DNA from: Aequorivita echinoideorum
GTDB taxonomy: Bacteria > Bacteroidota > Bacteroidia > Flavobacteriales > Flavobacteriaceae
Assembly: GCF_018476645.1 (NCBI RefSeq)
Contig: NZ_JAHCTB010000007.1
Coordinates: 1 to 64,000 of the forward strand
DNA length: 64,000 bases
Direction: 5' to 3'
A program made the translations under genes and the position numbers. Below, piece after piece: positions 30,879 to 46,283 of the stretch. The first letter of the stretch is position 1, and the number at the start of each line of letters is the position of its first letter. Below the pieces are notes generated by a model. That model was given only the letters and a program-made list of their open reading frames with translations. It had not been told where the DNA came from and made no database searches.

Positions 30879-33254
30879 ATGTTGAATATGAAAAACAATA
30901 CAAAGGATTTTCCGCTTAAAATCAATATTGGTTTTAAAAAAGTTTTTGACGCCTACAGGCAAAAGGTTGCAGATGGCGAGGTGCGAGCTTCCATTGCTGA
31001 GGAGATTTTTGAGATAGAGAGAAAACATCCCATTCTTTCTGAAGGTATTACCGATTTTGAGAAATTGGAAGATTACAGTGAGGAAATTGACATAGTTCTG
31101 GACCAACTTTTTCCACCCTTGGCGCAAAAAAATGAGATTAAGATTGCGACCGTGCCATTTCAACAAGGGGAATTCAAGAGTACAAAGCGATATAAAGATA
31201 TTGCGAAGGACGCCGGTGAAGGTTTTCACTTAGACATTATCGATTTTGACGATGATGAAATGTATATAATGGGTTGCAGCATCATACTTCAATATTATTA
31301 TGGGTATAAAATAGATTTCAAAAGGTCTTTTTATTACAATATTCCTGATGCACGCGGTATCATCAAAAACTACCGAATGTTATACAATGGTGACTTCGTT
31401 GAAATTGAAAAGACCGATGCCGCCCCTCAAATTACCGATGAAGATTTAAATGAGCTTTTAGAAAGTTTTGATGATATTTCAACTTGGAAAATTAAATTTC
31501 CTCCCCAAAGCTACATTTTTAATGGGTTTGTTATCGCTTCACTTTTTGACGTTACCACAGATGTTTCCATTTCAGACTTCAAAACAAATCTTTTACGGTT
31601 AGAAACCACCGGTGGCTTGGAGAATACAGATTTCAGTAGAATTTTTCGTTCCATTTTCGATCTCAAGGATTTAAGGATAGGGTTTGCGGATTATAATGAA
31701 GAGGATAAAACTTTTGAGAGAAATCTTTTTAAGGAAATTCCGAGTTTTATTCTGAATGAGAAAAAATCTGAGATCAGTAAAGAAGCTCTTTGCAATGCTT
31801 CCTATTATACGCTTTTCAAGCAAAAGGAGTTTTATTGCATTACCGATGCGGAACGTTATCACAGTTTATATCCCGAAAATCCACTTTACAAAAAAATGCT
31901 GGAACAAGGATTAAAGAGTGCCATTTTCGCGGCCATTGTTTCAAATAATAAAATTCTTGGAATTCTGGAACTTGTTTCACCCAATGCAAAAGATTTGAAC
32001 ACAATCAACGCCAATAAGTTGCGTGATATTATGCCTTTTCTCGTGGATACCGTAAAACGTAGCAAAGATAATTTGGAAAATGAATTGGAATTAATTATTC
32101 AAGAGGAGTGTACTGCAATCCACGCAAGCGTACATTGGAAATTTAGACAGGAGGCCAAGCGTTATTTCAATTCAATTTCAGAAGGAAGTCCCACAATTTT
32201 TCAGGAAATTGTTTTTGAGGACGTGTATCCCCTTTACGGGCAAACGGACATCAAAGGTTCTTCAGAAGCTCGAAATGAAGCAACAAAAAAGGATTTGATT
32301 CTTCAACTGGAATATATTTCAGAAGTAATAAAAAAATTAAATGCCGTTCAGAATTTACCTATTTTGGATCAAATAGAATTTACCATTCAAACTTTTTTGA
32401 ATGAGATTACAGAAAATTTACAGGTAGATACGGAACGAAAAATAATGAATTTTCTAGTCACTGAAATCATTCCATTTTTTAAATATATAGGTGAAAAGAA
32501 TCAAACCTATAGAATTCTGGTGGAGGATTACTACAAATTGATTGACGTAAATACTGGCTTCGTTTACAAAAATAGAAAGGATTACGATGAATCTGTAATG
32601 CTAATAAACAAACGGCTTGCGGCTATACTGGATAAAAAACAACAAGAAGCACAGCGCATGTATCCGCATTATTTTGAGCGTTTTAAAACGGACGGTGTGG
32701 AGCATAATCTATATATCGGCGAGGCCATTACCAAGGACAATTCTTTCAACAAAATATATTTGAATAACTTGAAATTATGGCAGTTACAGGTTATCTGCGA
32801 AATGGAAAATAATTTTTACAAATTCAAGGATAAACTTCCGGTGTCGCTGGATGTAGCATCCATGATTTTGGCATTCAATGGTTCGCTTTCATTGCGTTTT
32901 AGAATGGACGAAAAACGTTTTGATGTAGACGGAACCTACAATGCCAGATATGAAGTTGTAAAAAAGCGTGTGGACAAAGCGCACATAAAAAATACTGACG
33001 AAAGGGTAACACAGCCCGGAAAAATTTCAATCATTTATTCCCAAAAAGAGGATGAGGTTGAATATATGAAATACATTCAATTTCTTCAGCACCAAAAACT
33101 ACTTGATACTGATGCTGAAATCGTTGAAGTTGAAGATTTACAAGGTGTTACCGGACTGAAGGCGATTCGAGTAAGTGTCCTGTATTCAAAAAATATCGAT
33201 AAGGTAAAGGAATATTATACCTACGAAGATTTGATTTCAGAAATACAGGAATAA
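30879..33254 (+). CDS. Large cytosolic protein, GAF-domain-like
   Basis: A 791-residue protein with no signal peptide or membrane segment. It resembles long flavobacterial proteins annotated as GAF-domain proteins: a region near 290-400 (SEISKEALCNASYYTLFKQKEF ... IFAAIVSNNKILGILELVSP, not contiguous) looks like a GAF fold, which often binds small ligands such as cyclic nucleotides. The N-terminal part (about 50-230) and the helical C-terminal part (about 400-791) are unassigned. ATG start; an in-frame ATG three codons later is possible. Its stop lies 2 bp from the stop of the convergent HD-PycTM gene. Confidence 0.6.
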   Translation: MLNMKNNTKDFPLKINIGFKKVFDAYRQKVADGEVRASIAEEIFEIERKHPILSEGITDFEKLEDYSEEIDIVLDQLFPPLAQKNEIKIATVPFQQGEFKSTKRYKDIAKDAGEGFHLDIIDFDDDEMYIMGCSIILQYYYGYKIDFKRSFYYNIPDARGIIKNYRMLYNGDFVEIEKTDAAPQITDEDLNELLESFDDISTWKIKFPPQSYIFNGFVIASLFDVTTDVSISDFKTNLLRLETTGGLENTDFSRIFRSIFDLKDLRIGFADYNEEDKTFERNLFKEIPSFILNEKKSEISKEALCNASYYTLFKQKEFYCITDAERYHSLYPENPLYKKMLEQGLKSAIFAAIVSNNKILGILELVSPNAKDLNTINANKLRDIMPFLVDTVKRSKDNLENELELIIQEECTAIHASVHWKFRQEAKRYFNSISEGSPTIFQEIVFEDVYPLYGQTDIKGSSEARNEATKKDLILQLEYISEVIKKLNAVQNLPILDQIEFTIQTFLNEITENLQVDTERKIMNFLVTEIIPFFKYIGEKNQTYRILVEDYYKLIDVNTGFVYKNRKDYDESVMLINKRLAAILDKKQQEAQRMYPHYFERFKTDGVEHNLYIGEAITKDNSFNKIYLNNLKLWQLQVICEMENNFYKFKDKLPVSLDVASMILAFNGSLSLRFRMDEKRFDVDGTYNARYEVVKKRVDKAHIKNTDERVTQPGKISIIYSQKEDEVEYMKYIQFLQHQKLLDTDAEIVEVEDLQGVTGLKAIRVSVLYSKNIDKVKEYYTYEDLISEIQE

Positions 33255-33256
33255 AA

Positions 33257-34441
33257 TTACCCCTTCCAATAGAAGAAAATCGCAAAGGATATCAGTGAAA
33301 TAATAGTTCCAGCTACGAATATAGTGTAGGTAAGCCTCAAAATTCTATATTTTCTATCAAGAACTTTTCCTAGAAAATATAAATCCTTTGTGAGGGAATT
33401 ATACATATAATCCCTGTCTTTTAGCATTTCATCAATCGCCCATTCATATTGGTCCAGTTCCATTTTGTGGAAATTCCCGAAGAATGCCAGATTAACACTT
33501 TTGTTCTCAACATCTTCTTTGGTGAATTCGCCACGGGTTACGTTGGGACGCGTGGCAATAACCGCAAGGATCATGGTTATGGCACTAAAAAGTACAAAAA
33601 TGGCGGTGGGTATAATAAGGTAATTGTTATTGTCCAATTTTGAAATAAGATTGGAAAGCACCAACGATATAATGATGGCATTAACGGAAAGCATAATGTT
33701 TGCCTTGGTATCTGCTATATCACTTAACTTTATATGGTTTCGGAGCGCCACACGATAAAAAGTCTGGATTCCCCTGTCTGGACTTTCGTTTTTGTATTTC
33801 GCTTTTAATTTTGCTTTAGTGCGTTCGCGGCTTAATTTTTCTTTACTTTTTCTCCGATCCTTCATCAAATCGGCCAGGTTATCTTCCTTTACGGGCTGCC
33901 ATTTTTTGAGCGCATAGTCGGTATAAAACTTATGTTCTTCAATGAACATTTTTATATTTTCGTTTCGCCATTCTTTGGGCGTATAATTATGCACGTTTTG
34001 GGAAATATATTCCTGTCTCAAAAATTCGCTGGCCTCTTCAAAATAGTCCTTACCCAAGTGCGATGAGTCCGCATCCCGGATAATCTCTTCCAATTTATTT
34101 TTCGGCGTGGTATTTTTAAATTCGGTGGCTAGAATACATTTTTCAACACCTTCGATTATATCTTTTTCGACATTCTGGGAAGTCAAAAATTCATTGGCGA
34201 TTTTTGCGCTTTCTATTTCATGGCCTTTTCGCTTAACCGTATATCCCGTATCGTGGAGCAAAGCCGCCAATCGCAGTATTGTAGCATCTTTAACATTAAT
34301 TTGTGAATGTTCAATAATTTCATTTATACTTTTATAAACACGTTTTGAGTGGGTATAATTATGGTAAATAAATGTACTTGGAAGCTTGTCTTTAAAGAGT
34401 TGCAAAACAAAATTATCAGTAGCTTCAATAATATCGCTCAT
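33257..34441 (-). CDS. HD-domain hydrolase fused to Pycsar-effector-like membrane domain
   Basis: 394 residues in two parts. Residues about 20-190 form an HD phosphohydrolase domain: His31, the LLHDTG motif (His63-Asp64), His74 and a RDADSSHLG segment supply the expected metal ligands. Residues about 235-394 resemble the PycTM/DUF5706 membrane effector domain of Pycsar systems: NHIKLSDIADTKANIMLSVNAIIIS leads into one helix pair, and a last TM segment ends the protein (about 370-391). A basic linker (about 190-225) joins them. Start ATG 34441; an upstream TTG also opens the frame. No nucleotide cyclase is nearby, so a phage-defence role is not shown. Confidence 0.75.
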   Translation of the reverse strand: MSDIIEATDNFVLQLFKDKLPSTFIYHNYTHSKRVYKSINEIIEHSQINVKDATILRLAALLHDTGYTVKRKGHEIESAKIANEFLTSQNVEKDIIEGVEKCILATEFKNTTPKNKLEEIIRDADSSHLGKDYFEEASEFLRQEYISQNVHNYTPKEWRNENIKMFIEEHKFYTDYALKKWQPVKEDNLADLMKDRRKSKEKLSRERTKAKLKAKYKNESPDRGIQTFYRVALRNHIKLSDIADTKANIMLSVNAIIISLVLSNLISKLDNNNYLIIPTAIFVLFSAITMILAVIATRPNVTRGEFTKEDVENKSVNLAFFGNFHKMELDQYEWAIDEMLKDRDYMYNSLTKDLYFLGKVLDRKYRILRLTYTIFVAGTIISLISFAIFFYWKG

Positions 34442-34494
34442 AGGTTTCAAATTATCAATCCAAAGTACTAAAATTTAAAAGTCCAAACAGCCAT

Positions 34495-37400
34495 ATGGTT
34501 AAAATTAACATCTTTATAACTTTTGTATCCGCACTCTTATTAACTTCCTGTGCCACTTACAAACCTCAATATGCTACTCCACAAGACAAAACTTTCCAAA
34601 CACCTAATAAAGAGATAGACAAAACATTCTTTTTAATGGGAAATACAGGGAACGATGAATCCAAAAAATCTGCTTCCCTACAAGCGCTTCAAAAATATGT
34701 TTCTGAAAATAATACCGAAGATAGTTATGTGCTATTTCTTGGGAATAGTTTTTATCCATCTGGAATGATACCGAAGGATGAAAAGCTGAAAGCAAAAGCC
34801 GAAATTGCCATGCAGAAACAGGTAGATGCGTTGAAGGATTTTAAAGGAAAAGTCGTAGTAGTACCGGGAAACCTAGACTGGAAAAGCGGAGTTGATGGAT
34901 TGGAACTTGAGGAGGATTTTTTGAAAGCACGCTATAATGATGCAGACATCCTGCAGCCCAATAATGGTTGCCCTATGGAAAGCATTGATATTAATGAAGA
35001 TGTACAACTTATTATAGTTGATACACAATGGTATTTGGAAGATTGGGATGATTATCCAAAAATGAATGACAAGTGCGATATAAAAACACGTCAAAAACTT
35101 TTCATTGAGATTGAAAATGAAATAAAGAAAAATGCCCACCGCACTATTGTTTTTGCTATGTTTCATCCTTTGATAACAAATGGGCAACTCGGCGGCCAAT
35201 ATCCCTTGATACACAAAGATGTTTTAAGTACGTTAATAAAGCCAATCAAAACGCAAGGGGCTATCTCAAAGCAGGATCGTTACAACGAACGATACAATGA
35301 ATTTATGAGCAGAATGGAGGTTTTGACGAAGGATTTGAACAGGCTCATTTTTGTTTCCGGCGCAGAGAAATCACTCCAGTATATTGAAAAACCACGAGCA
35401 AAGCAAATTATCTCAGGTGCCGCCAATGATACTACAGCGGCGCGATTGGGTCAATTCGGTAAATTCAGTTATGGCGGAAATGGATTCGCCAGACTTGACG
35501 TAAATAAAGACGGTTCATCAAACGTAACTTTTTTAAAGGCAAAAAATGATGGAACATCTGAAGTTCTCTATCAAGCTGAAATTTTTCCCGCAGAAAAGGA
35601 GTATGATCTTTCAAAAGTTCCAAATTCATTTCCCGCAACGGTAAGGGCTTCAGTTTATGAAGATTCGCAGGTTGAAAAAACAGGTTTCTTCAAAACACTT
35701 TGGGGTGAACACTACCGAAAAATATACGGCACTGATGTTACCGCAAAAGTCGCTGTCCTGGATACACTATACGGCGGTCTGAAAGTTATTCGTCCTGGCG
35801 GTGGGCACCAGACACGCTCTCTTCGATTGGAAGATAAAGATGGAAAAACCTATAACATGAGAGCTCTGGAGAAAAGCGCAGTGCAATTTTTGCAGACCGT
35901 TATAATTAAGGACAAAGAAATTGAAGCGGATTTTGTGAATACAATTCCTGAAGAATTGATTCAGGATTTCTATACTGCCGCCCATCCCTACGGCGCATTT
36001 GCTATTCCAAAACTTGCGGATGGTGCAGGAGTGTTGCACACCAATCCAAAACTTTTCTGGGTGCCGAAGCAAAAAGCATTAGGTAAATACAATGAAAACT
36101 ACGGCGATGAACTCTACATGATCGTAGAACGTCCCGATAAAGAATTTGATGGTGAAATCTTCGGAAATGCGGATGACGTTGAAAGTACGGATGACCTTTT
36201 GGCAAAATTAAGAGAGGATGAAAAGTATAGACTTGATGAAAAAGCCTATGTACGCGCCAGAATTTTTGATATGTTGATAGGAGATTGGGACAGGCATAAC
36301 GACCAGTGGCGTTTTGCACAGCACAAAAATGATGATGGCTCGTCCACTTTTATCCCCATTCCTCGGGATAGGGATCAGGTTTTCTCAAATTTTGATGGTG
36401 GATTGCTGGATGTTGCGCGCACACTTTTTAATACCTCACGTCAATTTCAAGTGTATGGTGAAGAGTTGAAACATACCAAATGGTTCAATTCTGCGGGAAT
36501 AAAATTGGACAATGCACTCATCAATAATGTAACAAGAGAGGAATGGATTGCCGAAGCGCAGGCAATTCAAAATGGAGTTACGGATCAAATTATTGAAGAA
36601 GCATTTGACGATTTACCTAAAGAAGCCCAAGATGAATCAGCTTCAGAATTAAAACAAAAATTGAAAGGCAGAAGAGATAATATCGTAAAAATTACGGAAG
36701 AATACTACGAGTATTTCTCAAAATTGCAAGTGCTTACCGGAACTGATAAAGATGATTATCTTGAAGTCACCCGATTGCCAGAAGGTAAAACGAATATCAA
36801 GATCTATCGTTTAAAGGATGGTGAAAAAGCGGATTTATTGGTCGATAGAACATTTGATGCGAAGGAAACAAAGGAAATTTGGCTCTACGGTCTGGATGAT
36901 GATGATGTTTTTGATGTGAAAGGTGATGGCAATAAGCCAATTTTCCTAAGGATAATTGGTGGTCAAAATAATGACACCTATAAAATTTCAAATGGAAGAA
37001 AGGTTAAAGTATACGACCAAAAAAGCAAGAATAACACAATTGAAGAAAAAGGCGGTGCCAGCTTTAGATTGACTGATAATTACGATTTCAACACATATAA
37101 TTATCAAAAACAGATACAATCTATCAATCTTTTGGCACCATCTGTAGGCTTCAATCCAGATGATGGAATACAAGTTGGACTTACAAATACATTCACGCTC
37201 AATGGCTTTCAGCGCAATCCTTTCACGCAACAGCACAGAATAGGTTTTGGATATTATTTTGCTACAAACAGTTTTGATTTGGATTACGAAGGACAATTTG
37301 CCAATATTTTTGGAAGCTGGAACTTTTTAATTGGCGGATACTATAAAAATGCCAACTTCGCTGAAAACTTCTTCGGTATAGGTAATGAAACCATTAATCC

Positions 37401-38169
37401 GCAATATGAATTTGATTTTGATAGAGATTACAACCGTGTAAGAATTGGCGGTTATGGCGCCAATATTGGAATTGTAAAAGATTCGCCTTACGGAAGTTTT
37501 TATCAATTTAAAGCAATTTTTGAAGGAATTGAAGTAGAAGGCACTGATGGAAGGTTTATCACAGATTTGCCCGTTCCTCCCACAGAATTAGATGAGACCC
37601 AATTTTTCGCCACTGCGGAAGGAACCTACGGTTATGAAAGTTACGATAACAAAGTAAACCCCACCAAAGGAATGCGCTTCGACTTGAGCGTGGGAGCCAC
37701 TCAAAATATTGACGATGAAGACGCCATTTTTGGATATGTAAAGCCAAGAATTATATTTTACAATGCATTATCGAAAAATAGAAAGTTTGTTTTAAGAACT
37801 GATTTCCGCAGTCAAATAAATATTGGTAACAATTACGAATTCTACCAGGCTGCGCAATTGGGAGGCGATAATGGCTTACGCGGGTATAGAAACGAGCGAT
37901 TTACCGGAAGGACATCTGCTGTGGGAAGTGGTGATATTTTGTATAATTTCAATAGATTTAGAACGGCCCTAACTCCGGTACAAATTGCCATTTTTGGTGG
38001 TTACGACGTGGGAAGAGTTTGGGTGCGAAATGACACGTCAGATGTATGGCATAGTTCTTTTGGTGGTGGCTTATTGGTAAATGCCGCGGATGTTATAAGT
38101 GGAAAATTTAACTTATTTACGGGAGGTGAAGGACTGCGCTTTACGTTTGGTCTTGCATTTTCAATGTAA
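34495..38169 (+). CDS. Lipoprotein: degenerate phosphoesterase, kinase-like segment, outer-membrane barrel
   Basis: 1,224 residues. The lipoprotein signal (LLLTSC, Cys19) is followed by a calcineurin-like phosphoesterase fold (about 43-330) whose metal-binding motifs are mostly lost: GDxG reads GNTG, GDN reads GNS, GNHE reads GNLD, MHHP reads MFHP and GHDH reads GAEK. A central region has MLIGDWDRHNDQWRFAQ (Asp597-His601) and then IPIPRDRDQVFSNFDG, reminiscent of the catalytic and metal loops of CotH/FAM20-type kinases. The last about 330 residues form a BamA/D15-like barrel with LRGYRNERF and a terminal Phe-rich strand. It is a tandem paralogue of the next gene, 5 bp downstream. Confidence 0.8.
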   Translation: MVKINIFITFVSALLLTSCATYKPQYATPQDKTFQTPNKEIDKTFFLMGNTGNDESKKSASLQALQKYVSENNTEDSYVLFLGNSFYPSGMIPKDEKLKAKAEIAMQKQVDALKDFKGKVVVVPGNLDWKSGVDGLELEEDFLKARYNDADILQPNNGCPMESIDINEDVQLIIVDTQWYLEDWDDYPKMNDKCDIKTRQKLFIEIENEIKKNAHRTIVFAMFHPLITNGQLGGQYPLIHKDVLSTLIKPIKTQGAISKQDRYNERYNEFMSRMEVLTKDLNRLIFVSGAEKSLQYIEKPRAKQIISGAANDTTAARLGQFGKFSYGGNGFARLDVNKDGSSNVTFLKAKNDGTSEVLYQAEIFPAEKEYDLSKVPNSFPATVRASVYEDSQVEKTGFFKTLWGEHYRKIYGTDVTAKVAVLDTLYGGLKVIRPGGGHQTRSLRLEDKDGKTYNMRALEKSAVQFLQTVIIKDKEIEADFVNTIPEELIQDFYTAAHPYGAFAIPKLADGAGVLHTNPKLFWVPKQKALGKYNENYGDELYMIVERPDKEFDGEIFGNADDVESTDDLLAKLREDEKYRLDEKAYVRARIFDMLIGDWDRHNDQWRFAQHKNDDGSSTFIPIPRDRDQVFSNFDGGLLDVARTLFNTSRQFQVYGEELKHTKWFNSAGIKLDNALINNVTREEWIAEAQAIQNGVTDQIIEEAFDDLPKEAQDESASELKQKLKGRRDNIVKITEEYYEYFSKLQVLTGTDKDDYLEVTRLPEGKTNIKIYRLKDGEKADLLVDRTFDAKETKEIWLYGLDDDDVFDVKGDGNKPIFLRIIGGQNNDTYKISNGRKVKVYDQKSKNNTIEEKGGASFRLTDNYDFNTYNYQKQIQSINLLAPSVGFNPDDGIQVGLTNTFTLNGFQRNPFTQQHRIGFGYYFATNSFDLDYEGQFANIFGSWNFLIGGYYKNANFAENFFGIGNETINPQYEFDFDRDYNRVRIGGYGANIGIVKDSPYGSFYQFKAIFEGIEVEGTDGRFITDLPVPPTELDETQFFATAEGTYGYESYDNKVNPTKGMRFDLSVGATQNIDDEDAIFGYVKPRIIFYNALSKNRKFVLRTDFRSQINIGNNYEFYQAAQLGGDNGLRGYRNERFTGRTSAVGSGDILYNFNRFRTALTPVQIAIFGGYDVGRVWVRNDTSDVWHSSFGGGLLVNAADVISGKFNLFTGGEGLRFTFGLAFSM

Positions 38170-38174
38170 TATCT

Positions 38175-41100
38175 ATGATTTTTAAAAGAAAATATTTCTA
38201 TTTTATTTTAACCATTGCATTGACGTCGTGCGCAACGTATGCGCCACAATATAAATTTCCGGATGCCAATCCCATTTATCCATCTGAAAAAACGGTTGAA
38301 AAAACTTTTTATTTAGTGGGTGATGCGGGTCTTTCGCCTATGGGCGGGATGAGCGAGGCGTTGCAGACTTTCAAAAATTATCTTTCGAAAGAGAAAGTAA
38401 ATGACAATTACACTATTTATTTAGGAGATAACATTTATCCTTCAGGATTGGAGCCAGAGGGAGATCCAAAAAGGAAAATGTCTGAAAATATGATTGATGC
38501 CCAGTATAAAGCCGTAAAGGATTATACTGGGCAAACTGTTTTTATACCCGGAAACCACGAATATTACAGTGGGGGCGTGGTGGGCCTAAAGCGGGAGGAG
38601 GATTACGTGGAAAAACTTTTTGGTGGCGAAGATGCTTTTAGGCCAAGCAACGGTTGCCCATTAGAAAGTGTAAACGTTTCAGATGATATTCAATTGATTG
38701 TTATTGATTCGCAATGGTATTTGGAGGATTGGAACAAAAATCCAACGATGAATAAAGATTGCGACATAAAATCACGTGAAAAATTCTTCATTGAACTGAA
38801 TCTGGAAATTCAAAAAAATAAAAATAAGACCATTGTTTTTGCAATGCACCATCCTATGTACACAGATGGTAATCACGGCGGTTATTTTGCCTTGGAAAAA
38901 CATTTGTATCCCCTTCAGAAAAAAATACCCATGCCTTTTTTGGCATCCATTGTGGTTCAGGTGCGTTCGCAGGGAGGTGTCTCGGTGCAGGACAGGTACA
39001 ATGAGTTATATAACAATTTGATGAATAGACTTCAACAGATTGTAAAGAACCACAAACGAGTTGTATTTGTTTCCGGCCATGACCACACGTTACAGTATAT
39101 CGAGGATGGTAATTTTAGGCAGATTGTTTCCGGAAGCGGTTCAAAGGAGTCTTATGCGGCCACGGGCGAGAATGGATATTTCAGTAACGGAAGGCAGGGT
39201 TTTGCCGTTCTCGATGTCTTTACAGATGGTTCCTCTTGGGTTCGTTATTATGCGGGAGATGAAAATTTTGAACCTGAGATAATTTTTCAAAAAGAAGTGA
39301 TTCCCGCTCCGGTCAATGTGGATTTGAATCAATTTCAGGAAGAATTCCCGTCTGAAGTATCCGTTCCCATCTATAAGCAGGACAGTATTCGCGAAGCACT
39401 TTTTTTCAAAACAATTTGGGGCCAAAAATACGAGAATGCATATTCCACTTCGGTTCGTGCAAATGTTGCCGTGCTGGATACTTTATATGGTGGTCTTACT
39501 GTTATCAGGGAAGGAAAGGAATTGGATTACAGATCGCTCGTGCTACGTGATAAAAAAGGAAATCGCTACCGAATGCGGGCAATGGGTAAAAATGCGCTTC
39601 AGATTTCGGAGAAATTGGTATTTGATGCTAACAATGAAAACCCAGCGCAAGTTGAGAAACAGGAGGTTCCAAAGCCAGAAATTCTGAATGTAGATTTCTA
39701 TACGGCATCGCATCCTTATGCCGTGATGGCAATTCCGTATATGGCAAAGGCCATCAACGTTTTTTATACTACGCCGGAGCTTTTTTATGTTCCGAAACAA
39801 AAAAGATTGGGCAACTACAATGACAATTTTGGGGATGAACTTTATTTGATTTCCGTGGAACCTTCCGAAAGAAGTGAAGGAGAAGTTTTATTTGAGTACC
39901 CCGATGATGTAGAAACCACAGATGATATTTTAATAAAATTACGTAAGACCGGAAATGTTTTTGTTGATGAACAGAGCTATATAAAATCACGACTTTTTGA
40001 TATGTTAATAGGCGATTGGGACCGTGAAAATGACCACTGGCGCTGGGCACAGTATGACAACAATACTGGGGAAGACGTTTATGTGCCAATCGCAAAGAAT
40101 AGGGACGAGGCTTTTTCAAGTTTTGAGGGCAATATTCTGGATATTACGAGATCCATTTTTGGCGGAACTAGGCAATCACACGTTTATTCCAAAAATTTGA
40201 CAGATTTAAAATGGTTCAATCAAGAAGGAACTATTCTGGATCGCGCGCTTATTCAAAATTCAGGAAGAAATCAATGGAAATTTTTAGCCACCGTTATCCA
40301 GGATAGCATTACAGATTCCATAATTGACAATGCTTTCGAAAAAATTCCACAAGAAGTCCAAGATGAATCACTTCAAAATATAAAAAAAATTTTGAAGGAA
40401 AGAAAAAAGAATCTGGTTGATATTGCGGACAGATACTACACCTATTTATCAACCCTTCAGACCATAGTGGGGACGGATTATGATGATATTTTCGAAATAA
40501 CTAGACTACCCGATGGCAAAACAAATATAAAGACATACACTACCATCAACGGCGTAAAGTCTGATACGCTGATTGATAGAACCTTTTCGCATAAGGATAC
40601 AAAAGAACTTTGGCTCTACGGATTGAATGGAAATGACAGTTTTAGAATAGTGGGCGATCACAATGATTTGATTTATGTGAGAGCCGTTGGAGGGCACGGA
40701 ACAGATAGCTATGATTTGGAAGAAGGAAGGCGTGTGAAGGTGTATGACTATCAAAATTTAGAAAGTACCGTGGTAGAAAAAAAAGGCGGAAGTTTACGTT
40801 TTACAGATGTTTATAATCTGAATACGTATGATTACCGGAAGCAGATAGACCGCACCCACGGCGTAGTTTCCGCAATTGGTTACAATCCTGATGATGGTTT
40901 TAGGGCGGCGGCACAGTATATATTTAGAATCGATAATTTTCAAAAAAATCCGTTCTCACAAAGGCACACGCTCAATGCAGCATATTTTACGGATGTTGAC
41001 AGCTATGAACTTGCATATACCGGTGAATTTGCAAATATTAAAGATGATTTGAACCTAAGCTTGGGCGGAAGATATACCAGCCCAAATTACACCATAAATT

Positions 41101-41885
41101 TCTTTGGCTTCGGAAATGAAACCGAGAATTTACAAGAGGAAGCCGGTTTTGATTTCAACAGGATCAAGGTTCAAAATATTTCTGCAAACGTGGGGCTTCT
41201 TCGCAATAGCCTTTTTGGAAGTTTCTTTAAACTCCAAACATCCTTTGAAACCTATAGGGTTGATGATAGCGGAACTAATTTTTTCAATTTAATCGGGAAT
41301 CAAACCACTGATAATAAATATTTTGGAACGCTTGAAGGAATCTACAATTACCGAAGTGCGGACGATGTAATTAACCCAACGCTCGGGATGATGTTTGATC
41401 TTCAATTGGGCGTAACGGATAATCTTGAAGATAATTCAAGGGTTTTTGGCTTTTTAAAATCAAGAATTGGTTTTTATAATACCTTGATACGTGATAGGAG
41501 TTTGGTTTTGAAAACCAATTTGAGAACCCATTTAAATTTTGGAAACCAATACGAATTCTATCAAGCTGCTTTTATTGGCGGAGACAGTGATCTGCGCGGT
41601 TATCGTGCAGAACGATTTATGGGAAGATCTGCACTTGTGGGAAGTGCCGATTTACGCTACAAATTTCCGTCTTTTAAAATTGGTATTATCCCGATAAATA
41701 TTGGAATCTATGGCGGTGCAGATTTGGGACGGGTTTGGCAACGTAATGAAACTTCGAAAAAATGGCATAATTCCCGAGGTGGAGGATTGTACATCAATGG
41801 TTCCGGTGGGCTAAATGGTAGTTTTAGCGCCTTTAATTCTACGGAAGGAACAAGGGTAACTTTCGGTCTCGGATTTGATTTCTAA
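38175..41885 (+). CDS. Lipoprotein: intact phosphoesterase, kinase-like segment, outer-membrane barrel
   Basis: 1,236 residues, same plan as the preceding gene: lipobox (ALTSC), phosphoesterase, central domain, BamA/D15-type barrel (LRGYRAERF, ending GFDF). Here the phosphoesterase metal site is complete: VGDAG, YLGDNIYPSG, PGNHEYYSGG, AMHHPMYTDGNHGG and SGHDHTLQY. The central loop reads DWDRE (Asp614-Glu618) in place of DWDRH. The protein would be anchored at the outer membrane, with the phosphoesterase probably acting on a phosphoester in the periplasm or at the surface; the substrate is unknown. It is probably co-transcribed with its paralogue (5 bp gap) and is followed by a terminator. 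Confidence 0.85.
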   Translation: MIFKRKYFYFILTIALTSCATYAPQYKFPDANPIYPSEKTVEKTFYLVGDAGLSPMGGMSEALQTFKNYLSKEKVNDNYTIYLGDNIYPSGLEPEGDPKRKMSENMIDAQYKAVKDYTGQTVFIPGNHEYYSGGVVGLKREEDYVEKLFGGEDAFRPSNGCPLESVNVSDDIQLIVIDSQWYLEDWNKNPTMNKDCDIKSREKFFIELNLEIQKNKNKTIVFAMHHPMYTDGNHGGYFALEKHLYPLQKKIPMPFLASIVVQVRSQGGVSVQDRYNELYNNLMNRLQQIVKNHKRVVFVSGHDHTLQYIEDGNFRQIVSGSGSKESYAATGENGYFSNGRQGFAVLDVFTDGSSWVRYYAGDENFEPEIIFQKEVIPAPVNVDLNQFQEEFPSEVSVPIYKQDSIREALFFKTIWGQKYENAYSTSVRANVAVLDTLYGGLTVIREGKELDYRSLVLRDKKGNRYRMRAMGKNALQISEKLVFDANNENPAQVEKQEVPKPEILNVDFYTASHPYAVMAIPYMAKAINVFYTTPELFYVPKQKRLGNYNDNFGDELYLISVEPSERSEGEVLFEYPDDVETTDDILIKLRKTGNVFVDEQSYIKSRLFDMLIGDWDRENDHWRWAQYDNNTGEDVYVPIAKNRDEAFSSFEGNILDITRSIFGGTRQSHVYSKNLTDLKWFNQEGTILDRALIQNSGRNQWKFLATVIQDSITDSIIDNAFEKIPQEVQDESLQNIKKILKERKKNLVDIADRYYTYLSTLQTIVGTDYDDIFEITRLPDGKTNIKTYTTINGVKSDTLIDRTFSHKDTKELWLYGLNGNDSFRIVGDHNDLIYVRAVGGHGTDSYDLEEGRRVKVYDYQNLESTVVEKKGGSLRFTDVYNLNTYDYRKQIDRTHGVVSAIGYNPDDGFRAAAQYIFRIDNFQKNPFSQRHTLNAAYFTDVDSYELAYTGEFANIKDDLNLSLGGRYTSPNYTINFFGFGNETENLQEEAGFDFNRIKVQNISANVGLLRNSLFGSFFKLQTSFETYRVDDSGTNFFNLIGNQTTDNKYFGTLEGIYNYRSADDVINPTLGMMFDLQLGVTDNLEDNSRVFGFLKSRIGFYNTLIRDRSLVLKTNLRTHLNFGNQYEFYQAAFIGGDSDLRGYRAERFMGRSALVGSADLRYKFPSFKIGIIPINIGIYGGADLGRVWQRNETSKKWHNSRGGGLYINGSGGLNGSFSAFNSTEGTRVTFGLGFDF

Positions 41886-41939: not shown

Positions 41940-42431
41940 CTAAATTTCAGGATGGTTTTGTGAGGTTTTCATGGTCCAGGCATCCAGCATCCAGCTCACT
42001 TTTTCAAGATCAGCAATAAAGCTTCCTATCATATCAATAGTTCCTTCATCGCCGGCAGCATCGGCTTTTTCTACCACTTTTCGCATTTGTTTCAGTAAAA
42101 GTCCGTGGTCTTCCAAAAGAATTTTTACCATCTCAGTATCTTTTGTTTCTGAAGGTGATTCTTTTAGATTGCTTATTTTCAAATAATCAGTAAAATTGCT
42201 TGTAGGTTGAAAGCGAAGCGTTAAAATACGCTCGGCAATTTCGTCAACTTTTATTTTTGCGTCTTCATACATTTCTTCAAATTTTATATGAAGATCAAAA
42301 AAATTGGGTCCTACCACATTCCAGTGAAAATTTCGCAATTTTTGATAATACATATGGTAATCTGCCAACAGTATATTCATCTGTTCGGCCGTGGCCGTAA
42401 TTTTCTTTTTATCAAGATTTAAATAATTCAT
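41940..42431 (-). CDS. dps: Dps-family DNA-protecting ferritin
   Basis: Dps forms 12-mers that oxidise and store iron and shield DNA from peroxide. The 163 residues are an all-helical ferritin-like protein with the ferroxidase-centre segments QKLRNFHWNVVGPNFFDLHIKFEEMYED (split: FHWNV about 37-41, DLHIKFEEMYED about 46-57) typical of Dps. A further conserved helix contains the DHGLLLKQMR segment. ATG start. It is transcribed alone toward a strong shared terminator; the promoter should lie in 42432-42560, opposite cysQ. No OxyR site could be judged by eye. Confidence 0.93.
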   Translation of the reverse strand: MNYLNLDKKKITATAEQMNILLADYHMYYQKLRNFHWNVVGPNFFDLHIKFEEMYEDAKIKVDEIAERILTLRFQPTSNFTDYLKISNLKESPSETKDTEMVKILLEDHGLLLKQMRKVVEKADAAGDEGTIDMIGSFIADLEKVSWMLDAWTMKTSQNHPEI

Positions 42432-42536
42432 TTATATAGTTTTTGGTTATTCCCAAAGATACTTCATTGAAGATAATTTTTGCAATTCTGAAAAAAGGTT
42501 TAGTGTTTTTTTAACGGCAATAAAGATTCCGTATCA

Positions 42537-42567
42537 CTTTTAAAGCCTTCGGTTTATTGTAACTTTG
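42537..42567 (+). promoter_or_regulatory. Bacteroidota-type promoter of cysQ
   Basis: CTTT, 19 bp, TAACTTTG; the -7 box is a full TAnnTTTG match and the -33 box is approximate. It ends 6 bp before the cysQ ATG. Confidence 0.55.
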
Positions 42568-42573
42568 GAATCT

Positions 42574-43380
42574 ATGAATGAAAATGAACTCAAGTCCTAT
42601 TTGGAAACCGCCATAGTTGCTTCGCTAAAGGCCGGACGGGAAATATTGAAAATTTACGATACCAACTTTGATGTTGAAATTAAGGAAGATAATTCTCCTT
42701 TAACGCAAGCCGATAAAAACGCAAATAAGGTTATCAATTACTATCTTCAACAAACCAATATTCCAATAATTAGCGAAGAAAACAAGCAATTGCCTTACGC
42801 TGAAAGAAAACACTGGACGCGTTGCTGGATTGTTGATCCGCTGGATGGAACAAAGGAATTTATAAAAAGAAATGGCGAATTTACCGTAAATATCGCGCTT
42901 GTAGAAAATGGCAATCCTGTACTTGGAGTGATTTATGTTCCTGTGACCAAGGAATTGTATTTCACTTCAGAAGATTTAAAAAATTCAAAAAAAATAACAA
43001 TTACTTCCGAAGATGAAACTATTGAAAATATTTTTAAGAATTCTTCGGTTATAAAGCCTTCAGCAATCAGCGATACTGTGAAAATTGTGGGAAGTCGGTC
43101 GCATTTAAATGATAATACAAAAAAATTCATTTCAGAAATTGAAAAAAAACATAGTGTTGAAATGGTCTCAAAAGGGAGCTCAATAAAGTTCTGTCTGGTA
43201 GCTGAAGGCGCAGCACACATTTATCCCAGATACGCGCCCACAATGGAATGGGATACCGCGGCGGGCCACGCGATATGCAAAACTGCCGGAGTAGAGGTAA
43301 TTGACCATAAAACCAAAAAACCGATGATCTACAACAGGCCCAATCTGCTGAATAACTATTTTATAGTAAGTTCACTGTGA
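42574..43380 (+). CDS. cysQ: 3'(2'),5'-bisphosphate nucleotidase
   Basis: CysQ removes the 3'-phosphate from PAP (and PAPS), the product left after sulfate transfer or reduction. It has the inositol-monophosphatase fold and is Mg-dependent. It carries IISEENKQLPYAER and the metal motif WIVDPLDGTKEFIKRNGEFTVNIAL (core about 89-113), with the second site WDTAAGHAI (about 226-234). It has 268 residues from ATG 42574; the TTG nine bases earlier lies in the promoter. It heads the plus-strand cysQ-cysC-cysD-cysN group, consistent with removing PAP made when PAPS is used. Confidence 0.95.
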   Translation: MNENELKSYLETAIVASLKAGREILKIYDTNFDVEIKEDNSPLTQADKNANKVINYYLQQTNIPIISEENKQLPYAERKHWTRCWIVDPLDGTKEFIKRNGEFTVNIALVENGNPVLGVIYVPVTKELYFTSEDLKNSKKITITSEDETIENIFKNSSVIKPSAISDTVKIVGSRSHLNDNTKKFISEIEKKHSVEMVSKGSSIKFCLVAEGAAHIYPRYAPTMEWDTAAGHAICKTAGVEVIDHKTKKPMIYNRPNLLNNYFIVSSL

Positions 43381-43473
43381 AATATATACTTGCAGATTTC
43401 AGAAAAAATGATTTTATAGTATCTTCACAAACGCAATTTGCCGCACGGCAATCGGTTCTAAAATTTGGCTGAG

Positions 43474-44070
43474 ATGGAAAATATAATTCCCCATAAATTC
43501 AACATTGGCAAGACAGAGCGAGCTGGACTCAAAAACCACGACACGGTGCTTCTCTGGTTTACGGGCCTTTCAGGTTCCGGCAAGTCCACCATTGCGAATG
43601 CCCTGGAAACGGAACTATATCATAAAAAGATACACACCTATATTTTGGACGGTGACACTATAAGAAAGGGCCTTAACGGAAATCTTGGTTTTTCAGAAGA
43701 AGATAGAAGCGAAAACATAAGGCGCATTGCCGAAGTTGCCAATTTGATGCTGGATGCAGGATTGGTGGTTATGGCATCATTTATTTCGCCCTACCGCGAG
43801 GATCGCGAACAGGTAAAACGAATTGTTGGGTATACCAAAATGATTGAAATTTTTATAAATACACCAATTGAAACCTGCGAAATAAGGGATGTAAAAGGTC
43901 TTTACGAAAAGGCACGGAAAGGTGAAATAAAGAACTTCACCGGCGTAGATGCACCATACGAAGCACCATTGGCGCCAGATATTGAAATAGATACAACAAA
44001 AATGTCAATCAATGAGGCGGTGAATTTGATATTAATAAAGATTTCATCAAAAATTGAAATAAGAAACTGA
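43474..44070 (+). CDS. cysC: Adenylylsulfate kinase
   Basis: APS kinase phosphorylates adenylylsulfate to PAPS. The protein has the P-loop GLSGSGKST (about 31-39), the DGDTIRKGLNGNLGFSEEDRSENIRRIAEVA block (core DGDTIRKGLN about 59-68) and the ASFISPYREDRE motif. The 198 residues are of normal length. The ATG at 43474 is used; an in-frame TTG three codons upstream is less likely. Next in line are cysD and cysN, so the pathway sulfate - APS - PAPS - PAP recycling is complete in this cluster. Confidence 0.95.
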   Translation: MENIIPHKFNIGKTERAGLKNHDTVLLWFTGLSGSGKSTIANALETELYHKKIHTYILDGDTIRKGLNGNLGFSEEDRSENIRRIAEVANLMLDAGLVVMASFISPYREDREQVKRIVGYTKMIEIFINTPIETCEIRDVKGLYEKARKGEIKNFTGVDAPYEAPLAPDIEIDTTKMSINEAVNLILIKISSKIEIRN

Positions 44071-44103
44071 AGCTGAATTAATCTGCAGATTATACTAAAA
44101 AGT

Positions 44104-45009
44104 ATGAATAAATATTATTTGAATTATTTGGATGAGCTGGAATCTGAAGCAATTTATATTCTTCGTGAGGTTTGGGCACAGTTTCAAAATCCAGTAATTC
44201 TCTTTTCTGGCGGAAAAGATTCAATTGTGGTGACTTATTTGGCAAAAAAGGCTTTTTTTCCATCAAAAATTCCCTTTCCGCTTTTGCACGTGGATACGGG
44301 CCATAATTTTCCCGAAACGCTTCAATTTCGAGATGAGTTAATTAAAGATTTGGGACTTACACTTCTTGTAGCCTCAGTTCAAGAATCGATAAATAGCGGA
44401 AGAGTCTCCGAAGAAAAAGGAAAAAGCGCTACACGAAATGCGCTTCAGATTACAACATTACTCGACGCTATTGAGCATCATAAAATTGATTGCGCCATTG
44501 GCGGCGGAAGGAGGGATGAGGAAAAAGCACGCGCAAAAGAGCGGTTTTTTTCGCATCGGGATGATTTTGGACAGTGGGATCCCAAAAACCAGCGGCCCGA
44601 ACTTTGGAATATTTTAAACGGAAAACATTTTGAAGGCGAACATTTTAGGGCCTTTCCCATTAGCAATTGGACTGAAATGGATGTGTGGAATTACATTGAA
44701 CGCGAAAACATCAAAATTCCTTCGTTATATCTGGCACACCAGCGGGAGGTGGTTTGGCGAAACCAATGTTGGATTCCATTTTCAGAATTTTTGAAATTGG
44801 ATGAAAATGAAAAAGTTGTTTCAAAGAAAATTCGCTTTAGAACATTGGGAGATATTACTATTACCGGAGGAATTGAATCTGAGGCAGATACTGTCAATAA
44901 AATAGTTTTTGAAGTTGCAGCAATGAAGCAAACCGAACGCGGAAATAGAAGCGATGATAAGCGCAGTGAAACCAGTATGGAGGACAGAAAGCGACAGGGA
45001 TATTTTTAA
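44104..45009 (+). CDS. cysD: Sulfate adenylyltransferase subunit 2
   Basis: CysD makes APS from sulfate and ATP, driven by the GTPase CysN. It is an N-type ATP pyrophosphatase: ILFSGGKDSIVV (PP-loop, about 32-43), HVDTGHNFPETL (about 64-75), AIGGGRRDEEKARAKERFFS and the C-terminal RQGYF end. 301 residues, as in E. coli (302). ATG start. It lies 33 bp after cysC and 17 bp before cysN, clearly one transcript. The GGRRDEEKARAK block is the APS-binding segment of the family. Confidence 0.96.
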   Translation: MNKYYLNYLDELESEAIYILREVWAQFQNPVILFSGGKDSIVVTYLAKKAFFPSKIPFPLLHVDTGHNFPETLQFRDELIKDLGLTLLVASVQESINSGRVSEEKGKSATRNALQITTLLDAIEHHKIDCAIGGGRRDEEKARAKERFFSHRDDFGQWDPKNQRPELWNILNGKHFEGEHFRAFPISNWTEMDVWNYIERENIKIPSLYLAHQREVVWRNQCWIPFSEFLKLDENEKVVSKKIRFRTLGDITITGGIESEADTVNKIVFEVAAMKQTERGNRSDDKRSETSMEDRKRQGYF

Positions 45010-45026
45010 TATTCAAGAAAAAAAGA

Positions 45027-46283
45027 ATGGAAATAGATAAAAATCAATTACTTAGATTTACTACTGCCGGAAGTGTGGATGACGGTAAAAGTACTTTGAT
45101 AGGGAGATTGTTGTATGATAGCAAATCCATTTTTGAAGATCAAATTGCAGCGGTAGAAACTACCAGTAAGAGAAAAGGACACGAAGGAATTGATCTCGCA
45201 TTGTTTACCGATGGTTTACGGGATGAACGCGAACAAGGTATCACAATTGACGTGGCCTATCGCTATTTTACCACTCCCAAGCGCAAATTTATAATTGCTG
45301 ATACGCCCGGCCATATTCAATATACCCGAAATATGGTTACGGGAGCATCCACAGCCAATGCCGCACTTATTTTGGTAGATGCCCGCCACGGAGTTATTGA
45401 ACAAACCAAACGGCACGCTTTTATTGCTTCGCTTTTGCAAATACCGCATATTGTGGTCTGTATCAATAAAATGGATCTGGTTGATTATTCAGAAGAAATA
45501 TTTCAGCGCATAATGCATGATTTTGAAGGTTTCTCTTCAAAACTTTACGTGAAGGATATTCAATTTTTACCCATTAGCGCTTTGCACGGGGATAATGTGG
45601 TAAACAGATCCACGAATATGGATTGGTATCAAGGAGCGCCATTGCTATATACCTTAGAGACTATGCATATTGGGAGTGACATCAATAAAATTGATGCACG
45701 CTTTCCTGTGCAGACGGTTCTTCGGCCACAGCGGGATGAATTTATAGATTATCGCGGATATGCTGGGCGGGTTGCAAGCGGAATTTTTAGACCGGGTGAT
45801 GATATTGTAGTTATGCCATCGGGTTTTGCTTCAAAAATAAAGAGCATCGATACAATGACAGGGACAATTTCTGAAGCTTTTGCACCTATGAGTGTTGCTA
45901 TAACCCTGGAAGACGATATAGACATAAGTCGCGGGGATATGATTGTAAAAACCAATAACCAACCAAAGGCCGTCCAGGAATTTGATGCCATGCTCTGCTG
46001 GTTGCATAATACTGCTGCAAAGTCGCGAGCTAAATATAGCATTCGGCATACGAGTAATGATCAAAAAGCAATGATAACAAACGTTGTCTATAAGATTGAT
46101 ATAAACACATACGCAAGGGAAGAAGATAATAAAGAACTGGAAATGAATAGCATTGCACGCGTGACGCTGCGTACAACCCGCCCCATAATGGCTGATGAAT
46201 ACCGGGAGAATCGTGCTACCGGAAGTTTTATTCTTATTGACAACACAACACACGAAACCGTAGCTGCCGGAATGATTGTGTGA
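45027..46283 (+). CDS. cysN: Sulfate adenylyltransferase subunit 1 (GTPase)
   Basis: CysN is an EF-Tu-like GTPase that couples GTP hydrolysis to APS formation by CysD. Visible are G1 TAGSVDDGKSTLIGRLLYDS (about 13-32), the G2 region with EREQGITIDVAYR (about 68-80), G3 DTPGHIQYTRNM (about 92-103) and G4 NKMDLVD (about 147-153), followed by two beta-barrel domains. The 418 residues are shorter than E. coli CysN (475) but usual for bacteria with separate CysC. ATG start. It is the last gene of the sulfate-activation group; udk has its own promoter box. Confidence 0.95.
   Translation: MEIDKNQLLRFTTAGSVDDGKSTLIGRLLYDSKSIFEDQIAAVETTSKRKGHEGIDLALFTDGLRDEREQGITIDVAYRYFTTPKRKFIIADTPGHIQYTRNMVTGASTANAALILVDARHGVIEQTKRHAFIASLLQIPHIVVCINKMDLVDYSEEIFQRIMHDFEGFSSKLYVKDIQFLPISALHGDNVVNRSTNMDWYQGAPLLYTLETMHIGSDINKIDARFPVQTVLRPQRDEFIDYRGYAGRVASGIFRPGDDIVVMPSGFASKIKSIDTMTGTISEAFAPMSVAITLEDDIDISRGDMIVKTNNQPKAVQEFDAMLCWLHNTAAKSRAKYSIRHTSNDQKAMITNVVYKIDINTYAREEDNKELEMNSIARVTLRTTRPIMADEYRENRATGSFILIDNTTHETVAAGMIV

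Follow-up and report, generated by a model that had tools for sequence, protein, structure and literature searches.

The Omp85 lipoproteins described here are encoded by two adjacent genes in the first 64,000 nucleotides of contig NZ_JAHCTB010000007.1 from Aequorivita echinoideorum (GCF_018476645.1, positions 1-64,000 of the forward strand), a stretch that we refer to as the window. Both genes lie on the plus strand and were assigned from open reading frames, motifs and alignment: the first, P1 (34495..38169, 1,224 amino acids), is phosphatase-degenerate and kinase-intact, while the second, P2 (38175..41885, 1,236 amino acids), is phosphatase-intact and kinase-degenerate. An initial annotation had described them as adjacent paralogues of these lengths, which agrees with the open reading frames and with an end-to-end alignment at 45% identity and 65% positives. 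They are separated by 5 base pairs (bp), probably form one operon, and are the only copies found in this 2.93 Mb genome. The names P1 to P4, for copies and clades, were coined in the present analysis. Both proteins have the same order of modules: a lipobox, a purple-acid-phosphatase-like domain, a kinase-fold domain, a beta-rich linker and a 16-strand Omp85 barrel. Structural models were made of P1 only, and the AlphaFold model of residues 25-1224, from 46 aligned sequences (predicted local distance difference test (pLDDT) 84.9, predicted template modelling score (pTM) 0.81), resolves four modules, comprising the phosphatase-like domain (residues ~40-368), the kinase-fold domain (395-744), the linker and the barrel.

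The phosphatase-like domain of P1 (residues 40-368, 34612..35598) is modelled with the fold of the purple acid phosphatases: the human (2bq8; 268 residues at 2.7 Å) and pig enzymes both match at Z 28.9 over 267-268 residues, followed by Plasmodium GAP50 at Z 26.9. By sequence, P1 has no Metallophos match in Pfam, and a search of PDB sequences up to E 1 yields no phosphatase; its membership of the fold is read from the model only. P2 belongs to the metallophosphoesterase family by its match to PF00149 (1.7e-8, 35.6 bits, above the cut-off of 21.5), and among proteins of solved structure the purple acid phosphatases are closest to it in sequence (E 1.2e-4). The motifs carry the difference between the copies. 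P2 has GDAG (38319..38330), GDNIY with the bridging Asp and the purple-acid-phosphatase Tyr (38424..38438), GNHE (38550..38561), MHHP (38844..38855) and GHDH (39075..39086), for which P1 has GNTG, GNS, GNLD, MFHP and GAEK. These were quoted correctly in the initial annotation, and its statement that each motif of P1 had lost key ligands can be refined: five of the six scored metal ligands are lost, the Asn of GNLD is retained, and so is the purple-acid-phosphatase Tyr. Among relatives, a complete dinuclear metal ligand set including the Tyr (8 of 8 scored residues) is present in 38 of 38 members of the P2 clade and in none of the 30 members of the P1 clade, in which Asp52, His92 and His223 are kept in 0/30. 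Asp14, Asp52, Tyr55, His92 and His223 are given in the ligand numbering of the purple acid phosphatases. P1 is thus best described as a modelled member of the phosphatase fold rather than a predicted phosphatase, while P2 is a predicted phosphatase by its residues.

The central domain of P1 (residues 395-744, 35677..36726), folded alone by AlphaFold (pLDDT 82, pTM 0.84), has CtkA as its best match in Foldseek (E 1.4e-5). A second structural comparison gave PI4KII at Z 15.1, CotH at Z 14.1 and CtkA at Z 13.5. A profile of eight standalone and two fused kinase domains finds CtkA among PDB sequences (E 1.2e-4), placing its LGNFDRHNGNW in register with the IGDWDRHxxQW of the family. A kinase-like centre had been guessed at from the motifs DWDRH and PRDRD in P1 and DWDRE and KNRDE in P2, all of which read as quoted, and the proposed comparison with CotH, FAM20 and HipA bears the guess out, the P1 model falling with the PI4KII/CotH/CtkA/HipA group. 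FAM20 comes lower in Foldseek (Golgi casein kinase, 2.9e-3) and is not among the best 50 structural matches of the second comparison, so that a relation to it is neither favoured nor excluded. The kinase fold of the P1 model is well supported, and the family alignments suggest roles for its conserved residues: Lys460 (35872..35874) as putative nucleotide-binding Lys, the loop DWDRHNDQW (residues 597-605, 36283..36309), aligned to GNFDRHNGNW of CtkA, as likely bearer of the catalytic Asp, and PRDRD (residues 623-627, 36361..36375; family and profile alignments) as probable metal loop. The corresponding domain of P2 (residues ~407-761, 39393..40457, bounded by alignment to P1) is degenerate, with DWDRE at 40014..40028 (His601 replaced by Glu, and Gln604 by His just downstream, in P1 numbering) and KNRDE at 40095..40109 (Asp625 replaced by Asn). 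All 11 kinase-loop residues are present in each of the 30 P1-clade members, whereas the P2 clade keeps His601 in 0/38, Gln604 in 0/38 and Asp625 in 2/38. With the phosphatase counts of the two clades, this shows that the difference between P1 and P2 is no accident.

As the top structural matches are lipid kinases, the domain might act otherwise than on proteins, as a lipid kinase or in transfer of adenosine monophosphate, and would then form no simple opposing switch with the phosphatase. PlpD, another Omp85 barrel with a fused enzyme, reportedly has phospholipids as its substrates and reaches them from the periplasm (PMC11116518), which would suit such a role. PI4KII, CotH and CtkA differ by no more than ~1.6 in their best Z-scores, however, so the substrate class is not readable from the fold, and we regard this alternative as unlikely, though not implausible.

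The complementary state of the two copies recurs among their relatives. The six phosphatase ligands and seven kinase residues were scored in every full-length copy, with M denoting the phosphatase site and K the kinase site and a plus sign meaning that all scored residues of the site are kept, for all open reading frames of at least 1,150 amino acids that remained after removal of identical cores (188 reduced to 175); broken copies (P2 of L053/L020, L091 and the third copy of L048) lie outside this set. The 175 copies, which are related and so do not represent independent events, comprise 85 M+K+, 48 M-K+, 42 M+K- and no M-K-. The division of activities proposed in the initial annotation is supported at the level of residues, with P1 predicted to keep the kinase activity and P2 the phosphatase activity. 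Neither of the outcomes that would have spoken against it was observed: no first-copy orthologue has the full set of phosphatase ligands (0/30), and the modelled central fold is kinase-like. Active and inactive copies do recur in tandem, a point that annotation had proposed to check, but the pattern is wider than such pairs, since it extends to third copies and to copies that are not linked.

A tree was calculated from the linker and barrel only, rooted by choice on L031. In this quick tree, which carries a long-branch warning, the clades P1 (30/30 M-K+), P2 (38/38 M+K-) and P3 (14/14 M-K+) each have a Shimodaira-Hasegawa-like approximate likelihood ratio (SH-aLRT) support of 100. P3, the third tandem copy of some genera, groups with P2 (support 90), and phosphatase-intact copies of the Leeuwenhoekiella type are placed between P1 and P2/P3 (support 85), with four changes required for each trait. 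The ligands lost also differ: Asp52 is lost in 30/30 P1 copies and kept in 11/14 P3 copies, while Asp14 and Tyr55 are lost in 14/14 P3 copies and kept in 9/30 and 24/30 P1 copies, respectively. This branching and these differing losses point to loss of the phosphatase at least twice within the tandem array, although the loss of His92 and His223 throughout both P1 and P3 would also fit a single loss if the branching is wrong. Shuffling of domains between copies was rejected, as trees of the phosphatase domain and of the kinase domain alone (97 of the 175 copies) keep P1, P2 and P3 as single groups, with P1 support of only 79 in the phosphatase-domain tree.

At the level of whole genomes, all 42 M+K- copies have an M-K+ copy in the same genome, in 36 cases at the same fetched locus and in six (L045, L048, L063, L064, L077 and L109) elsewhere, as found by whole-genome search. 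Four of these six differ at one kinase residue (His601 to Asp or Asn in Leeuwenhoekiella, Asp625 to Asn or His in Gelidibacter) and are for that reason weaker instances. The 48 genomes tabulated, in which M-K+ copies may have been missed as genome completeness is not stated, comprise 8 with M+K- and M-K+ (selected for having M+K-), 13 with M+K+ and M-K+, 27 with M+K+ and no M-K+ found, and none with M-K-. The table omits G488, the frames of which are broken, G495, where the locus meets a contig edge, and G458 and G459, in which the second copy is incomplete; G456 is counted once. Genomes in which no M-K+ copy was found all have an M+K+ copy (27/27), 26 being from the table and one being that of L110 (G500), a locus dropped as a duplicate, which the table therefore lists as M+K+ by default and which was scored from its own motif reading. 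Taken together these states suggest an order of events in which duplication was followed by loss of the phosphatase in the extra copy and then, in some lineages, by loss of the kinase in the phosphatase copy.

Gene dosage could produce part of this pattern if one phosphatase per cell is enough and additional kinase-barrel copies are useful, without P1 and P2 being paired functionally. The extra copies, which are mostly unlinked, are mainly M-K+ (26 of 32 fetched, the 32 including the re-read primary loci L303 and L323), and M+K+ stands beside M-K+ in 13 genomes, both as dosage would have it. On its own it leaves unexplained why kinase residues are lost from P2 and from the phosphatase-intact copies of Leeuwenhoekiella and Gelidibacter, and we think it an unlikely explanation, though not an implausible one.

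Rates of divergence were compared by domain over 28 loci with both copies (378 locus pairs, 14 of them disjoint). P1 shows the faster divergence of the phosphatase domain in 374 of the 378 pairs (13/14 disjoint), and that of the kinase domain in only 28 (2/14 disjoint). As the linker and barrel of P2 are somewhat faster (mean P1/P2 rate ratio 0.65 and 0.89), rates were normalised to the barrel, after which 370/378 pairs still show the phosphatase effect (mean 1.53) and 336/378 the kinase effect (mean 0.81). For near-invariant phosphatase columns, retention in P1 is 0.35 at the active site and 0.81 elsewhere, and the loss of its phosphatase site is targeted.

Both degenerate domains are under purifying selection. 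For close pairs, the median ratio of nonsynonymous to synonymous substitution rates (dN/dS) lies between 0.02 and 0.06 in all domains of P1 and P2 alike, being 0.06 for the dead phosphatase domain of P1 and 0.04 for the dead kinase domain of P2, values that are approximate because dS is mostly near 1 and only 5 to 7 of 8 pairs were usable, the rest being saturated. Both domains are thus retained for a purpose different from the catalysis that they have lost. That the degenerate copies are decaying pseudogenes is most improbable: the frames are open and the states uniform over 30 and 38 orthologues, and for the clade as a whole decay is contradicted by dN/dS. A single Aequorivita relative has a broken frame of the kind that decay would give, its P2 being split over two frames beside an intact P1 (L053, 10001-13713; L020).

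The remaining modules point to the envelope as the site of the pair. In P1 the beta-rich linker (residues 745-872, 36727..37110, from model secondary structure) is all beta in the model; the beta-alpha-alpha-beta-beta pattern of a POTRA domain does not appear among its predicted strands, the linker not having been searched alone. It is followed by the Omp85 barrel (37111..38166) of 16 predicted strands, the model of which matches BamA (Z 25.6) and TamA (Z 25.4). The P2 barrel (40842..41882) is bounded by alignment to P1, with NCBIfam Omp85_fam matched at residues 1047-1207. Matches to this family are significant in both (E 1.1e-13, and 6.3e-14 for P2; 51-52 bits), though below its cut-off of 200, and the D15 barrel attributed to the pair in the initial annotation is upheld. 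An LRGY motif is read directly in both sequences; RG(F/Y) is the loop 6 motif of the Omp85 superfamily. Each protein starts with a signal peptide that carries LTSC as its lipobox (Cys19 in P1, 34540..34551), as read directly from the sequence. A simple lipobox pattern is present in 22/30 P1-clade members and a loose one in 33/85 M+K+ copies, so that either lipidation is not universal or the lipobox is hidden by start codons chosen by script. Acidic residues directly after the lipobox Cys are a signal for surface export, and two or more of them were found in none of the lipobox-bearing copies. By analogy, the N-terminal enzyme domains most likely lie on the periplasmic side, given the lipobox, the even number of strands and the precedent of PlpD, an Omp85-patatin protein whose enzyme domain, in the available text, is reported to remain periplasmic, as a homodimer (PMC11116518). 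PlpD shares with P1 and P2 the fusion of an enzyme to an Omp85 barrel and differs in having a patatin enzyme and a POTRA domain.

The pair is part of a wider family, with a match to P1 in 167 of 395 genomes drawn from the phylum. Its members take three forms: proteins of ~1,240 residues, kinase-barrel proteins of ~850-950 residues that lack the phosphatase (L150-L168), and standalone proteins with the kinase fold (L112-L119 and L169; 410-423 amino acids). The last are anchored by a hydrophobic segment at the N-terminus, and their DWDRH/DRD loops are intact. Kinase motifs are lost in the distant kinase-barrel proteins L151, L156 and L168 and in a 321-residue open reading frame of L158. In the 171 of 216 sequences that bear His601, a subset picked by that residue and containing many close relatives, Lys460, Asp597, Asp599, Arg600, Gln604, Trp605, Asp625 and Asp627 are each at least 99% conserved; His601 itself is not counted, as it was used for the choice.

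We propose that a bifunctional ancestor was duplicated and that its copies then underwent reciprocal loss, leaving P1 and P2 as an opposing kinase-type and phosphatase pair at the outer membrane, an account to which we give somewhat better than even credence. The ancestor, which would survive as the M+K+ copies, may have joined two opposing modules to an Omp85 barrel, namely an N-terminal phosphatase of the purple-acid-phosphatase type and a phosphotransferase with the kinase fold. Together these could control the phosphorylation of an envelope target, most likely on the periplasmic side by analogy with PlpD. Tandem duplication in this lineage would have let the two activities separate, P1 keeping the kinase site with its dead phosphatase domain as a scaffold, and P2 keeping the phosphatase site with its dead kinase domain in the same role, although each dead domain may be either a scaffold or a regulatory partner. 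P1 and P2 would then probably be an opposing pair, and perhaps a hetero-oligomer. A broader version, that an envelope-tethered kinase-fold family is widespread in the phylum, that its phosphatase-fused members are bifunctional kinase/phosphatases whose activities have repeatedly been split after duplication, and that P1 and P2 are an opposed pair on one shared barrel scaffold, we put forward tentatively, as falling rather short of an even chance.

Several observations weigh against the proposed pair. The phosphate donor is the main difficulty of the mechanism, because the periplasm is not known to contain ATP. A common substrate of both activities does not follow from reciprocal loss, and the enzyme activities of P1 and P2 are themselves predictions from sequence and models. 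The link to known kinases is faint at the level of families: in four standalone relatives scanned, the best match to CotH (PF08757) was 15.8 bits against a cut-off of 23.8 and that to HipA_C (PF07804) 13.9 against 30.5, and neither P1 nor P2 has any Pfam kinase-family match at E up to 1. When 121 of the 216 aligned kinase domains were compared, profile against profile, with flavobacterial alignments of CotH and HipA, the matches were weak (CotH, probability 2%, E 0.024; HipA, 0.3%), although the DWDRH loop was aligned in both. A profile of fused domains only found no kinases in the PDB and one chance match at E 1.3, and the Foldseek TM-scores for CtkA are modest (0.42/0.54). The family has Gln at the position of the CtkA Asn, and the kinase-fold model covers P1, P2 being assigned by alignment. 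The P2 clade also keeps Lys460 in 37/38 and Asp599 in 38/38 members. The linker is faster in P1 in just 8/378 pairs and the barrel in 75/378; since P2 is thus faster in both, part of the kinase-domain rate effect is a general rate difference. Finally, retention in the P2 kinase domain is 0.71 at the active site and 0.75 at other conserved columns, so that targeted loss of the site as a whole set is not borne out, and specific loss is confined to three positions (His601 in 38/38, Gln604 in 38/38 and Asp625 in 36/38).

Many of the same points would be expected if only the phosphatase were an enzyme and the kinase-fold domain a conserved binding or scaffold module, such as a pseudokinase or a lipid or nucleotide binder, that is merely relaxed in P2: a periplasm not known to contain ATP, the Gln in place of Asn, the Pfam matches below threshold, the retention in P2 of Lys460 and Asp599, and active-site columns hardly more eroded than others. 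Such a module does not readily account for Lys460, Asp597, Asp599, Gln604, Asp625 and Asp627 standing at 99-100% in the His601-bearing sequences, for the retention of all six in 48 of 48 M-K+ copies, or for the occurrence of changes in copies whose genome has another intact copy. We consider this reading rather improbable, more so than either the dosage or the lipid-kinase alternative, and retain reciprocal loss from a bifunctional ancestor as the preferred explanation.

The architecture of P1 and P2 is known in part, since Heinz and Lithgow (2014; PMC4104836) described among the non-POTRA architectures a 'Metallo' Omp85 subfamily with the same barrel and an N-terminal PF00149 domain. In the available parts of that article PF00149 is termed a metalloprotease, and there is no mention of the kinase-fold domain, the purple-acid-phosphatase identity or the reciprocal loss. 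Among the matches listed in the open-licence literature we found no report of a kinase-fold domain, of a purple-acid-phosphatase identity or of reciprocal loss in this architecture, and a search for Omp85, metallophosphatase and Bacteroidetes returned nothing; within that scope these three features are apparently new. The available text of PMC10281475 cites a Riemerella metallophosphoesterase paper, which may or may not concern this family. Among better known proteins, the tartrate-resistant (purple) acid phosphatases have the same fold as the dead domain of P1 and scored ligands, including the Tyr, that P2 shares, but in P1 and P2 the domain is fused to a kinase fold and a barrel and is dead in P1. 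GAP50, a non-catalytic membrane anchor, has a purple-acid-phosphatase-like fold like that of the dead P1 domain, and as its context is unrelated it serves as an analogue only. CotH, CtkA, HipA and PI4KII have the same fold and the same positions of the catalytic and metal loops as the P1 model, whereas the P1/P2 family falls below their Pfam cut-offs, has Gln for Asn and is tethered to the envelope.

The genes beside the pair were also recorded. Divergent from P1, with its start 44 bp away, lies a gene for an HD-domain protein with a PycTM (Pycsar effector-type) membrane domain (window 33257-34450, minus strand), and next to it one for a 791-residue protein without Pfam matches at E up to 1 (30879-33254, plus strand). 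Relatives of these two occur in 76 and 68 of 80 fetched loci, single-copy loci included. The pair is followed at 41940-46283 by Dps and then CysQ, CysC, CysD and CysN (sulfate activation), named from reading of the translations, an order that recurs at many loci of the duplicated clade.

In general, reversible phosphorylation depends on the ATP of the cytoplasm. The division between P1 and P2, which recurs in their relatives, points to a so far unstudied switch of phosphorylation at the outer membrane and, if true, would represent a reversible phosphorylation system outside the cytoplasm. The conserved combination of kinase fold, phosphatase and barrel raises the question of whether an outer-envelope kinase is possible, with which donor and on which target. 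The natural split into two genes provides a ready-made experiment, since each activity could be deleted alone with the scaffold remaining. As an example of subfunctionalisation within single proteins it is also unusually clean, since there are two recognisable active sites and their states can be read for each copy.

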